Virus record (IMG/VR): IMGVR_UViG_3300035698_005133
Span: 1 to 48,237 of that record
DNA: 48,237 nucleotides
Origin: a virus
Strand: one strand, 5' to 3'
The notes beneath the pieces were generated by a model, which saw nothing but the letters and a program-made list of their open reading frames with translations, did no database searches and was not told where the DNA came from. The position numbers were made by a program, and so were the translations under genes. This document shows, piece by piece, positions 17,093-37,344 of the stretch (position 1 is the stretch's first letter; the number at the start of each line of letters is the position of its first letter).

Positions 17093-18517
17093 TTACGCGG
17101 GCTTCTGCAGTACAATCACTGGCTCTGTAGCTGGCTCGTCATCGTCTGGCGATCCCATGCGCGCTGGCATGACGAAGCGCTCTGTGTTGATGTGCACAAA
17201 GCCAACGCTGATCGCGTCTTCTACGGTCCATTCTTCGAGCGGGTACGTCTCGCCCTTTACGATGACGTCTGCAATGTTCACGATGTTGAACTTTCCCGGC
17301 TTCAGTGCTGCAAACTGCAGCGCGAGCATAGGGCGTAAAAAGCCCTCTCGCCATGCACTGCCCGTGCCGTAGCGCTTCCACGACTGTGTGTCGTCTTCGC
17401 TGTATCGCTCTTTGGCAAAGTACGGCGGCGACGTAAACGCGAAGTCGCACCGCCCAGCGACTTGCTCGTGCGGCACATCTTCAGCGGGCAAGTTGATAAG
17501 CTCTACGCGGTCACTGAAGCCAAGCTCTCGCGCCATGCGTTTGTTGCCCTCATACGTCGGCACGTTCGGGTCAATGCCAATGTACGTGCCGAGATTCGAG
17601 GCCATAAAGCCCACGAGTCTGCCGCCATACCCTGTTGATGTGTCGAGCACCGTATCTCCCGGCTGTGCATACGTGCGATACAAGAGCGACGCGAAGCCGG
17701 GGCGAAAGTTTGAGCACGCTTGCGTGCCGTTGACAAGCTGCAGGAAGCCGTAAATCGACGGCAGCGCGTTCTCTGCGGCATCGTCGCACACTTTCTTTAA
17801 GCTCTTGTCAATGTTGAACGACTCAAACGGCGAGCGTTTGTCAGTCGCTGCAGCATGGTAGCGGTGCGGGTGATACGTGTCCGCGACTTGATACGCCGTC
17901 GTAGTGCGCGCCAGCGAGTCTGTGTCAGTCTGCGCCAGCTTGTTGATTTGCTGCATGCACTGAAACACGGGCAAGTCGCGATACGGGAACCCTGTCTCGC
18001 GGTAATACGCGAACATGCGCTCAGAGATTGCGTCGGCGGCGAACACCTGCGGCACGTCTGGCAGTTGCTGCGCTTCGCTCAGCGGCTCGTTGGCTTCGCG
18101 GCCAAGAATCTCGTCTAGCTCGTCACTCAAGAAGCCTGTCTGGCTTATGTCGTAGCCCTGCTCAAGTAGTTCCTTCACTTCGATTGTAAGCAAATCGTCA
18201 TCCCACTGGCCATCTTCGGCGCTTCGATTGTCTTTGATGCGATACGCCGCCGCGTCTGCCGCCGACATATCAGACGCCACGTGCACCGGAACGTGTGTCC
18301 AGCCAAGCTGGCGCGCCGCTTGTAATCGCGTGTGGCCGACAATGACGACGCCATGCTTATCAACCACAATCGGCTGTCGGAACTTGAACTGACGCAACGA
18401 GCCTGCCAGCGAGGCGACTTGAGCGTCAGTCAGCTTGCGAGGATTGCGCGCGTAGGGAATAACGCGTTCAATCGCCCACGACTCGGTGTGTAGCTCGCCA
18501 GTGTCAGTATCAGTCAT
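17093..18517 (-). CDS. ParB-like N-terminal domain fused to DNA methyltransferase
   Basis: A 474-aa fusion. Residues about 13-100 form a ParB/Srx-type domain (IPYARNPRKL, VVIVGHTRLQAARQLGWTHV) followed by YRIKDNRSAED, the linker common in methyltransferase-associated ParB domains. The C-terminal half has a SAM motif (DTVLDTSTGYGGRLVGF), IGIDPN and catalytic TSPPYF, which points to amino-methylation of adenine or cytosine. I see no ParB helix-turn-helix that would read parS. ATG 18517 has GGAG six bases upstream in an ACTCACACGGAG leader; an upstream start at 18673 is only the parS palindrome read as MFHVEQ. First gene of the leftward block, likely acting to modify or protect phage DNA. Confidence 0.82.
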   Translation of the reverse strand: MTDTDTGELHTESWAIERVIPYARNPRKLTDAQVASLAGSLRQFKFRQPIVVDKHGVVIVGHTRLQAARQLGWTHVPVHVASDMSAADAAAYRIKDNRSAEDGQWDDDLLTIEVKELLEQGYDISQTGFLSDELDEILGREANEPLSEAQQLPDVPQVFAADAISERMFAYYRETGFPYRDLPVFQCMQQINKLAQTDTDSLARTTTAYQVADTYHPHRYHAAATDKRSPFESFNIDKSLKKVCDDAAENALPSIYGFLQLVNGTQACSNFRPGFASLLYRTYAQPGDTVLDTSTGYGGRLVGFMASNLGTYIGIDPNVPTYEGNKRMARELGFSDRVELINLPAEDVPHEQVAGRCDFAFTSPPYFAKERYSEDDTQSWKRYGTGSAWREGFLRPMLALQFAALKPGKFNIVNIADVIVKGETYPLEEWTVEDAISVGFVHINTERFVMPARMGSPDDDEPATEPVIVLQKPA

Positions 18518-18656
18518 GCTTGCTCCGTGTGAGTACGCGTGTGTTGCACTATGTGCCAGTGTGTGGCACAATCTACGCCGCAGCAAGGCACGTGCGCCCG
18601 TTGTGCATGCAACCAGCGCGTGAAACGCGCGCGCTGCTCGTGCCGTTGCGCACGAT

Positions 18657-18672
18657 TGTTCCACGTGGAACA
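18657..18672. promoter_or_regulatory. parS: parS centromere-like site, perfect palindrome
   Basis: TGTTCCACGTGGAACA is a perfect 16-bp palindrome and equals a form of the universal chromosomal parS consensus (TGTTNCACGTGNAACA) bound by bacterial ParB. It lies 140 bases upstream of the ParB-domain methyltransferase start, in the divergent promoter region. The phage encodes no ParA and its ParB-like domain lacks a visible parS-reading helix-turn-helix, so host ParB is the likely partner. A chance match to all 16 positions in 48 kb is very unlikely. Confidence 0.88.
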
Positions 18673-18780
18673 CTGTTGCCGCGTGCGCTCAGCGTCGCGT
18701 GCGTTGTGCGTGCGGCTCGTGCTGTCGTGCGCCCTGAGCGCAGCGCGGTATACCGTGCCATCTGACGGCGCAAGGACCCC

Positions 18781-34505: not shown

Positions 34506-35051
34506 CTACGCGACGCCGAAGCGCTGACGCCAACGAATCAAGCGGTCAGCTCCCGTAAGTGTGCGCCACTTTTGCGCGACTAGCCACCCGTCGCGGTCAA
34601 GCGACGGGTCGGCAACGCCCGCCTTGCTCGTGTTGCCGTCAATCACTTCAACGCGCAACGCGTTGCTTGCGTCTACGTTGAGCACAAAACCAATATGAGC
34701 CCAACGCTTCAGGCGCACGTTGTAGAGCGCGTACAAGTCGCCGCGTTGCGGCACACCTTGTTCGTTGCCTGTCACGAGATAGCGGCACTTGTGCTTGAGT
34801 GCCCATGCGCATATCGCCATGACGCTTGCGCTGTGCACGACAGGCCAGTCACTGCCGAGCGCATGCACGCCAACGTCAGTGACGTACGATGCGCACCATG
34901 GGTCGGGTGGCTTATTGCCCGTGCGGCGCTGCACACGCTCAACGTATGGCCCTCTGTTTGTGCTCGGCGGGTACTCGCCAGCGCCGACAGTCGCTTGCGC
35001 CACGCGGAGCACAAGCTCCACAACTGGCACAACGATTGCGCTGTTACTCAC
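34506..35051 (-). CDS. Endolysin, CHAP/NlpC-P60-like peptidase
   Basis: A 181-aa peptidoglycan hydrolase. Cys53 in PDPWCASYV, His119 in RWAHIGFV and Asn140 in VIDGNTS form a likely catalytic triad of a CHAP or NlpC/P60-type amidase/endopeptidase, and PQRGDLYALY is the usual loop before the His. No signal peptide and no separate wall-binding domain. GTG 35051 overlaps the holin stop as GTGA, giving a holin-endolysin pair. Confidence 0.82.
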   Translation of the reverse strand: MSNSAIVVPVVELVLRVAQATVGAGEYPPSTNRGPYVERVQRRTGNKPPDPWCASYVTDVGVHALGSDWPVVHSASVMAICAWALKHKCRYLVTGNEQGVPQRGDLYALYNVRLKRWAHIGFVLNVDASNALRVEVIDGNTSKAGVADPSLDRDGWLVAQKWRTLTGADRLIRWRQRFGVA

Positions 35052-35411: not shown

Positions 35412-36077
35412 TTATTGTTTGCGTAAGTCGGTTGCTTGTTCGTTGTGCATGCGCGCCTCAATGACACGCAGCACGCCTACCCAACCAACCATCTCTGCCT
35501 CTGCGTTAAACACAGGCGTTCCAACGTGCTCAACGCGCGCGCGAATAGCCGTGTATACGTGCCGCACGTTGTACACGGTGACATGCACGCGCTGTTCGCG
35601 CATGGCACGTGTTGCGCCTTGCGCGACGCGCTCTCTGTCTTCGTCTGCGACGGCGCGTAGCCAGCCGTCGTGGTCTGCGTCTTCGCGGGTCAGTCCGGTA
35701 ATGCGCACGAACTCTGGCGACACGTGCAAGACGCGCGATTGCGTCGCTGACACCTTGTATTCAAACGACGCCACCATTGACATTACGCGCCGTGCTTGCT
35801 GCTCAATCGCCTGTTCGTTGCGTATCTCGTTGATAGTGTCGCGTAGCGATGAACCGCCGTTTGGCTGCAGTTCTTTCTGGATGTCACGCAGCATTGGCAC
35901 GAGACGCTCTACAGTTAACGCAAGGTCGTCCAACTTTTCGGCGCGCTCGCTGTCGAGTTTGCGGCGCTCTAAATGTTTTGTGGACGCCTTTTTGTAGAGC
36001 TTAAGCAACAGTCCTCCGAGTGTGCCTAGACCAACAAGGATCGCGATAGCTTTCTGTGTTGAGTCAAGTTCAAACAT
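35412..36077 (-). CDS. Membrane-anchored PAS domain protein in the lysis cassette
   Basis: A 221-aa protein. One transmembrane helix (AIAILVGLGTLGGLLLKLY, about residues 10-28) is followed by a Lys/Glu coiled coil to about 100. A PAS fold of the PAS_3 kind then follows: VLHVSPEFVRITGLTREDAD, GWLRAVADEDRERVA, VTVYNVRHVYTAIRA and FNAEAEMVGWVGVLRVIEAR. No kinase or cyclase follows, so it may be a sensor or scaffold on the membrane. It lies 13 bases before the holin. ATG 36077 overlaps the previous stop as TAATG. Confidence 0.72.
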   Translation of the reverse strand: MFELDSTQKAIAILVGLGTLGGLLLKLYKKASTKHLERRKLDSERAEKLDDLALTVERLVPMLRDIQKELQPNGGSSLRDTINEIRNEQAIEQQARRVMSMVASFEYKVSATQSRVLHVSPEFVRITGLTREDADHDGWLRAVADEDRERVAQGATRAMREQRVHVTVYNVRHVYTAIRARVEHVGTPVFNAEAEMVGWVGVLRVIEARMHNEQATDLRKQ

Positions 36078-36451
36078 TACGGTTCTGAAAGAGTCACGAC
36101 GTTCGCGTCTCTGTACTCGAGCTGCACGGCAGCGCGCACGTTGTCTGCAAACGCAATGATACACCACGCTTCGGTATTTGCTGCGCCAAACACTGCCTTA
36201 AGCTCGGCAACGTCAAGGTCGGCGGCATCAAACAGCACGAGCCAGCGTCCTGCCCGTGTCGTATAGCTCGGCGTCGTGACAAATGAGACATGCGCCGCGC
36301 TCGCGTCGCTGTCGCTGCTCGTGGTGAGAAACGCCGTGGGCGTGCCCGCGTTCGTCGGCGTCGCGGCGGCGCGTCTGCCGTCAGTGCCCACGAGGCTCAG
36401 CGTGACCACAAACGCAAGATCGTTGTTCGGGTACAGTTTCGGCGTCGTCAT
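36077..36451 (-). CDS. Unknown accessory protein of late region
   Basis: A 124-aa beta-rich, Ala/Thr-rich protein (LYPNNDLAFVVTLSLVGTDG, then RWLVLFDAADLDVAELKAVF). It is between the repeat protein and the lysis cassette, overlapping the former by ATGA. It resembles small beta-sandwich virion proteins in composition but is not recognised. Confidence 0.6.
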   Translation of the reverse strand: MTTPKLYPNNDLAFVVTLSLVGTDGRRAAATPTNAGTPTAFLTTSSDSDASAAHVSFVTTPSYTTRAGRWLVLFDAADLDVAELKAVFGAANTEAWCIIAFADNVRAAVQLEYRDANVVTLSEP

Positions 36452-37344
36452 AGCAAGGCACTGATTGAGAGTGAGGGCGAAGCGTCGCTCAGGCTGAGCC
36501 GTGCGCGTGTGTCTTCAAGCTGCACGAGTGGCGACGCTGGCATCAGCAAGAGCGCCGCGCTGACGTCTTCCACGTGCTGCAGAAGCACGATGCGCGGGAA
36601 GCCGCCCGCTGTCGTCACAGACAGCGAAACGCCCTGAAGTGCTATCTCGCCCTTGGCTAGCGCTAGAAACTGCGTCACGCGGGCAGCTAGCGCGCCGGAT
36701 TCGAGCGCGAGAGCGCCAGCGTTGAGCAAAAACGCGCGCTGCGTCGTTTGTGCGAGCGTTTCGCCCTGCAGCGCGAGCGCGCCCGCGTCGAGCGCGAAGC
36801 GTAGCAGCGGCCCGACAAAGAGCGCCGTGCCAGTGAGCGCATACGCGCCAGACTGCAGCGCTGTCACGCTGCTGGCACGCGCACCGATCGGTGAGCCAGC
36901 GAGCGCGAGCGATCCCGCTGTCAGGCTCAACGTGAACGTTTGCGCGTTGCCGAACGCTTCGCCCTGCAGCGCCAACGCGCCGCTGTCCAGCGTCAGCGTA
37001 CGCGACGCGGCGACGTTCAGCGCTTCGCCAGCGACAGCAAGCGTGCCGCTGTCGAGCGCGAGAGCAGCGACGCGCCCAAAGTTCAGCGCTTCGCCCTGCA
37101 GCGCCAACGTGCCGCTGTCCAGCGTCAGCGTACGCGACGCGGCGACGTTCAGCGCTTCGCCAGCGACAGCAAGCGTGCCGCTGTCGAGCGCGAGAGCAGC
37201 GACGCGCCCAAAGTTCAGCGCTTCGCCCTGCAGCGCGAGCGCGCCCGTCTCAAGCTCAAAGAGATAGACAGTCGGGCCCGGCGCTGCTGACTCGCCAGCG
37301 TACAGCGGCAGCGCAGCGTTGTACAGACCAAAGACGCCAGACAT
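36448..37344 (-). CDS. 22-residue repeat protein, virion-type
   Basis: A 298-aa protein. Residues about 33-250 are ten tandem units of 22 aa with consensus G-x-L-A-L-x-G-x-A-L and a closing L-x-L-D-S (for example GTLALQGEALNFGRVAALAL). This fits a regular beta-solenoid or stacked beta-hairpins. Two adjacent pairs are near-identical at DNA level (132-bp units at 36961 and 37093). Ser/Leu-rich end. Placed among fibre-like genes before the lysis cassette; a surface or fibre role is inferred. Confidence 0.65.
   Translation of the reverse strand: MSGVFGLYNAALPLYAGESAAPGPTVYLFELETGALALQGEALNFGRVAALALDSGTLAVAGEALNVAASRTLTLDSGTLALQGEALNFGRVAALALDSGTLAVAGEALNVAASRTLTLDSGALALQGEAFGNAQTFTLSLTAGSLALAGSPIGARASSVTALQSGAYALTGTALFVGPLLRFALDAGALALQGETLAQTTQRAFLLNAGALALESGALAARVTQFLALAKGEIALQGVSLSVTTAGGFPRIVLLQHVEDVSAALLLMPASPLVQLEDTRARLSLSDASPSLSISALL
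36961..37224. repeat. 132-bp tandem duplication
   Basis: Bases 36961-37092 and 37093-37224 are nearly identical (one difference seen, GCCAACGC versus GCCAACGT) and a diverged continuation follows from 37225. Each unit holds two 22-residue protein repeats. The near-identity suggests a recent duplication or active gain and loss of repeat pairs. Confidence 0.88.

Follow-up and report, generated by a model that had tools for sequence, protein, structure and literature searches.

What might a sensor domain on a membrane anchor do among the lysis genes of a phage? The question is raised by a gene on the minus strand (35412..36077) of the window, a 48,237 nt stretch of viral DNA (positions 1 to 48,237 of the IMG/VR record IMGVR_UViG_3300035698_005133) in which terminase, portal, head and tape-measure genes are present. 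How the timing of lysis is matched to the state of the host is an old open question, and few environmental inputs to lysis are known, namely superinfection (T4, ICP1), loss of membrane potential and a quorum signal (VP882).

The gene encodes a protein of 221 aa (P0001) composed of a transmembrane (TM) helix, a helical stem, an NGGSSLRD motif and a PAS domain; proteins of this architecture are referred to as stem-PAS proteins below. Hydropathy analysis revealed a single hydrophobic helix at the N-terminus (residues 8-26 approximately; 36000..36056, minus strand). Its N-terminal flank is acidic and its C-terminal flank strongly basic, which by the positive-inside rule predicts an N-out/C-in orientation. 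The predicted structure displays an unbroken helix from residue 6 to 70, a break at NGGSSLRD, a second helix from residue 76 to 101 and the strands and helices of the PAS domain from residue 106 to 209. The QPNGGSSLRD motif (residues 71-80; 35838..35867, minus strand) is the hallmark of the stem and of the family phrog_9869, which P0001 matched with an E-value of 9.6e-6 over residues 63-94, the region around NGGSSLRD; the TM part lies outside this match. No match of P0001 to the PHROG holin family phrog_15431 was detected at E 0.1.

The PAS domain covers residues 106-209 approximately (35451..35762, minus strand) and was delimited with Pfam PAS_3 (residues 117-202), the predicted structure, Foldseek and VIA-align. 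P0001 scored 31.6 bits (E 2e-7) against PAS_3 (PF08447) and 27.6 bits against TIGR00229 sensory_box, passing the curated cut-offs of 25.6 and 22.9, respectively. The PAS block was predicted with a mean pLDDT of 92-97 for residues 121-200, and all matches of the model in Foldseek and VIA-align were PAS domains, aligned over residues 104-209. The best VIA-align match was 3h9w (Z 15.3, 105 residues, rmsd 2.1), while a search with P0001 against the sequences of solved structures revealed no match. According to profiles and model, P0001 carries a true PAS domain, although a divergent one in sequence, with several residues that are common in the family replaced. The fold is that of the PAS_3 domains of bacterial kinases and diguanylate cyclases (3h9w, 3lyx; NifL 2gj3). 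In those proteins, in contrast to the divergent P0001, an effector follows the PAS domain; P0001 has no effector domain and its C-terminus lies 12 residues past the last PAS strand. P0001 contains zero cysteines, and LOV-type photochemistry, which requires adduct formation, is therefore ruled out.

The stem-PAS gene is part of a lysis cassette located downstream of the tail genes on the same strand, with convergent genes adjoining. Its ATG shares bases with the stop codon (TAATG) of the upstream gene (36077..36451, minus strand; 124 aa), for which no family match was found. By eye, this small gene (36077-36451) and another one adjoining a stem-PAS gene elsewhere (L013:8125-8445, minus strand) have the look of a BppU-type baseplate N-terminal domain. 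After a gap of 13 bases, the stem-PAS gene is followed by the gene for P0002 (35048..35398, minus strand; 116 aa), a protein with a hydrophilic tail, one clear helix in the hydropathy plot and a weaker second segment. Searches of P0002 against Pfam, PHROG and TIGR families revealed no match, and a search for relatives found none; its size, hydrophobicity and position make it a probable holin. The P0002 gene shares 4 bases (35048-35051) with the gene for P0003 (34506..35051, minus strand, GTG start; 181 aa). P0003 was classified as a CHAP-type endolysin because it matched PHROG endolysin families (21357, E 2.6e-8) and showed a CHAP match (E 1e-3) under the Pfam cut-off.

The first-pass annotation had described P0001 as a protein with one TM helix, a coiled coil and a PAS_3-like domain without effector, encoded 13 bases upstream of a holin gene that overlaps the endolysin gene. 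Hydropathy, Pfam, TIGR00229 and the predicted structure bear out this description, as do the gap and the shared 4 bases, and the structure prediction that it had suggested as a check returned a PAS fold. Its label holin for P0002 agrees with size, hydrophobicity and position, but has no family match behind it.

Relatives of P0001 were collected with motif-based pattern scans, run with and without a downstream PAS-like GW, and with one alignment scan. Approximately 39 distinct proteins from uncultured-virus contigs share helix, stem, NGG-x-S-xx-D and PAS in that order, and these form about 18 lineages at 40% identity, that of this window included. A profile built from 19 relatives, with P0001 left out, aligned to residues 7-205 of P0001 with a score of 108 bits (E 2e-30 at a search-space size of 100,000), which places the shared architecture above chance. 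Six residues (N73, G74, G75, S77, D80 and W139 in P0001 numbering) are invariant in 20 representatives. Among the relatives, the dN/dS of the PAS part ranged from 0.01 to 0.46 for computable pairs, implying that the PAS domain is maintained under purifying selection. As judged from these sequences, the stem-PAS architecture is a recurring family and not a lone oddity.

Stem-PAS proteins were found in metagenomes only, and none in isolated phages or in the sampled bacterial genomes. A single-sequence search with P0001 revealed no close relative in INPHARED phages or viral contigs, and two other members of the family returned nothing from INPHARED at 1e-3. Pseudoalteromonas matches to P0001 in INPHARED (E 2-8), to a gene that adjoins the portal gene and is annotated in one record as head morphogenesis, were dismissed as noise. 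A scan of GTDB genome contigs detected bacterial PAS proteins, largely multi-domain, and no short stem-PAS protein; the closest cellular relatives of the PAS part are domains within larger PAS proteins. A DNA pattern for stem-PAS gave no match in 754 bacterial genomes from the classes of two loci (Sphingomonas/Piscinibacter), which is a weak negative since the pattern represents one codon form only.

Proteins with helix, stem and motif that lack the PAS domain are far commoner than stem-PAS proteins and often adjoin candidate endolysin genes. In a count whose seeds were chosen among neighbours, a gene of CHAP- or M15-like type lay no more than 1.5 kb away at 43 of 66 dereplicated stem-only loci, and no more than 60 bases away at 17 of those. 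For the stem-only loci having both flanks, the count was 31 of 48, compared with 0.34 in a random-point control. The M15-like neighbours were mostly named from an S-x-H-xx-G-x-A-x-D motif; they have no Pfam match, and their PHROG is of unknown function.

Stronger support for a link between stem and lysis, independent of these locus counts, comes from two annotated isolates. The Streptomyces phage mu1/6 encodes endolysin (gp50), holin (gp51) and stem protein (gp52) in this order, with a 4-base overlap, and a second holin-like gene of this phage has reportedly been the subject of a study. In the Thermobifida phage P1312, the gene of the stem protein gp040 precedes and overlaps an N-acetylmuramoyl-L-alanine amidase gene. 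The latter stem protein (L335:3908-4351) is annotated as 'sensory protein kinase CreC'; it is really a one-helix phrog_9869 stem protein and the annotation looks wrong. Both gp52 and gp040 match phrog_9869 (E 2e-32 and 4e-24) as well as the holin family phrog_15431 (E 4e-5 and 1e-10). Among the stem-PAS relatives, phrog_15431 was matched by L188 (E 6e-4) and weakly by L195. The two phage proteins, and with them phrog_9869/phrog_15431, resemble P0001 in the N-terminal TM helix, the helical stem with its PN-x-G/G-x-S-L-R-D motif and the adjoining endolysin and holin genes; unlike P0001, they end after the stem and have no PAS domain.

A further comparison is offered by LysF1b of the F1 mycobacteriophages Girr and NormanBulbieJr, a one-helix N-out/C-in protein that is required for normal lysis and regarded as a putative holin (PMC13056207). 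Its deletion alters lysis timing, a 2TM partner is encoded next door, and identity within the LysF1b-like class is minimal (PMC13056207). Likened by description, LysF1b and P0001 share one N-terminal TM helix, the N-out/C-in orientation (for P0001 from hydropathy and charge bias only), an extended charged cytoplasmic helix and an adjoining gene for a small membrane protein, which has 2TM in the case of LysF1b. In contrast to P0001, LysF1b measures 124 aa, has a tail of about 50% charged residues and carries no sensor domain. Residues 26-101 of P0001 are 38% charged; the mark for LysF1b-like tails is near 50% KRDE.

The predicted orientation holds across the family. In 37 of 38 stem-PAS and in 102 of 102 stem-only proteins, the segment that follows the helix is richer in lysine and arginine than the one preceding it, which predicts N-out/C-in and hence a cytoplasmic PAS domain.

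The genomic neighbours of the stem-PAS relatives present a mixed picture. The next gene downstream of stem-PAS codes for a small protein of two or more TM helices in 4 of 18 lineages, compared with a frequency of 3.5% among the genes of these loci (binomial P 0.003). The window studied here was excluded, the second segment of P0002 being under the threshold. One locus (L097) has the order PAS, 2TM protein and phrog_181 endolysin, and another (L206) a phage lysozyme 1.2 kb upstream of stem-PAS. At L186 stem-PAS is followed by an NlpC/P60 hydrolase, a family that occurs in tail proteins too. T4-lysozyme-like genes near L188 and L192 were named by eye, the one at L188 without Pfam or PHROG support, and were not counted. 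In total, lysis-type company was found in about 7 of 18 stem-PAS lineages, this window included. In four loci (L198, L199, L201 and L205), stem-PAS is followed by a membrane protein of 73-83 aa, to which L201 and L205 add a further 2TM protein; this arrangement is possibly a lysis cluster that carries no family annotation.

In about 11 of the 18 lineages, stem-PAS adjoins neither a recognisable lysis gene nor a small multi-helix protein. Non-lysis settings include a position before the portal gene in the L195 group, among head genes with the capsid gene in L189 and among tail genes in L013 and L132. Directly before the portal gene, stem-PAS stands at L195, L187, L196, L106 and L158, there mostly after an HNH-like gene. 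In the L068 group it is located between tail fibre and terminase genes, a position that we take to resemble the T7 holin slot.

The first-pass annotation had suggested that P0001 might tune the timing of lysis by sensing the state of the host, for example by holding or releasing the holin. The recurrence of the stem family in lysis cassettes makes this idea better founded than could be known at that stage; against it stand the approximately 11 of 18 lineages beside portal, terminase, capsid, tail and other genes. For this window a lysis role is likely, a statement that concerns the gene studied here and does not extend to the stem-PAS family as a whole. We favour the reading that P0001 is a one-helix holin-like lysis protein whose added PAS domain tunes the opening of the membrane, and rate its chance a little short of even. 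A one-helix holin-like protein of the lysis cassette would have acquired a PAS domain on its cytoplasmic side. Its N-terminal helix would span the inner membrane with the N-terminus outside, and the basic helical stem with its NGG-x-S-xx-D turn would lie in the cytoplasm, where it probably oligomerises. By analogy with LysF1b, the stem may form or control a membrane lesion. The PAS domain, hung from the stem, may respond through ligand binding, redox change or dimer rearrangement, and its state would shift the packing of the stem or its contact with the neighbouring probable holin. This change in the stem would set the time at which the membrane opens for the endolysin.

The PAS fold, the membership in the stem family, the charge topology, the gene order and the purifying selection on the PAS domain, on which this reading draws, were computed here. 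We infer the lysis role from the stem family and the neighbours, and likewise oligomerisation, the coupling of PAS domain and stem and the direction of action as holder or trigger. Besides the non-lysis genes next to about 11 of 18 lineages, the missing phrog_15431 match of P0001 and the missing family match of P0002 speak against a lysis protein.

The same gene order would suit a cytoplasm-facing antiholin. Such a stem-PAS protein would form no hole of its own; bound to the probable holin encoded downstream, it would hold this partner back until the state of the PAS domain changes, with a mode of action like that of the T4 and ICP1 lysis regulators. PAS domains commonly act by switching protein contacts, which counts for such a role, as does the position of the stem-PAS gene 13 bases directly upstream of the probable holin gene. 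Genes for antiholins frequently lie close to those for holins, and their products can work in the membrane, the periplasm or the cytoplasm (PMC7182436). The annotations associated with the stem family, namely phrog_15431 and the LysF1b analogy, however suggest holin-like and not inhibitory members, and we regard an antiholin as rather unlikely.

The missing effector also accords with a membrane-anchored decoy or modulator, whose PAS domain would alter host signalling by pairing with sensor kinases or cyclic-di-GMP enzymes of the host; the placement by lysis genes would then be an incidental late-operon position. The closest cellular PAS relatives, being domains of larger PAS proteins, and the many relatives away from lysis genes agree with this. 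Yet the PAS-less stem, which mostly occurs near lysis genes, would not serve this purpose, and stem and PAS domain stay joined across very diverse phages. A decoy therefore appears improbable to us.

The portal, terminase, prohead and tail genes that adjoin stem-PAS in several lineages might point to a morphogenesis or DNA-packaging membrane factor that helps to assemble heads or tails at the membrane. Such a factor is decidedly improbable, as the neighbours vary by lineage (portal, capsid, tail, lysis) without a constant structural partner among them, a sensor domain joined to a TM helix would be unusual in a structural part, and the gene of this window sits with lysis genes. An inner-membrane spanin or releasin-like protein, which might be suggested by the single helix, the long helical stem and the endolysin gene close by, is highly improbable; the N-out/C-in orientation predicted family-wide is opposite to that of inner-membrane spanins (N-in/C-out), and a cytoplasmic folded PAS domain does not fit a spanin.

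A holin-like protein tuned by its own PAS domain would differ from the phage sensors compared here. The sensor of VqmA, encoded by vibriophage VP882, is a PAS domain too. VqmA is, however, a transcription factor on the lysis-lysogeny switch, whereas P0001 is a membrane protein of the lysis cassette. We know of no PAS domain in the antiholins RI and RIII of T4 or ArrA of ICP1, and their architecture differs from that of P0001. VqmA ties the entry into lysis to the host signal DPO (PMC10426928), and RI/RIII and ArrA make lysis condition-responsive through their action on the holin (PMC7182436).

The separate parts, namely PAS domains, holin-like proteins with one helix and phage sensors acting on lysis, are already known. 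In the searched open-licence literature, we found no description of their fusion, of its occurrence across uncultured phages or of its placement in a lysis cassette, and no phage PAS lysis protein. The first-pass annotation had named no described phage lysis sensor of this form as known to it; this agrees with the literature searched, but the architecture is that of a recurring family. Tentatively, and with some doubt, we propose that phages have a widespread family of lysis proteins that unite a PAS domain and a one-helix holin or holin regulator in one chain; a chemical, redox or energy signal inside the cell would then directly gate the moment of lysis, without transcription. If true, a classical sensor domain in the cytoplasm, carried by membrane proteins linked to lysis, would give phages a direct route to read metabolism at release, and the phrog_9869 stem family, now listed as unknown, would gain a hypothesis for its function.

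Two further genes of the window were recorded. Beside the tail genes, 36448-37344 (minus strand) encodes a tandem-repeat protein of 298 aa, with a 132-base repeat unit in 2.2 copies (95% matches) and a 66-base sub-period. Upstream of the terminase, 17093-18673 (minus strand) encodes a protein of 526 aa with family matches of the ParB-like nuclease / DNA methyltransferase type.
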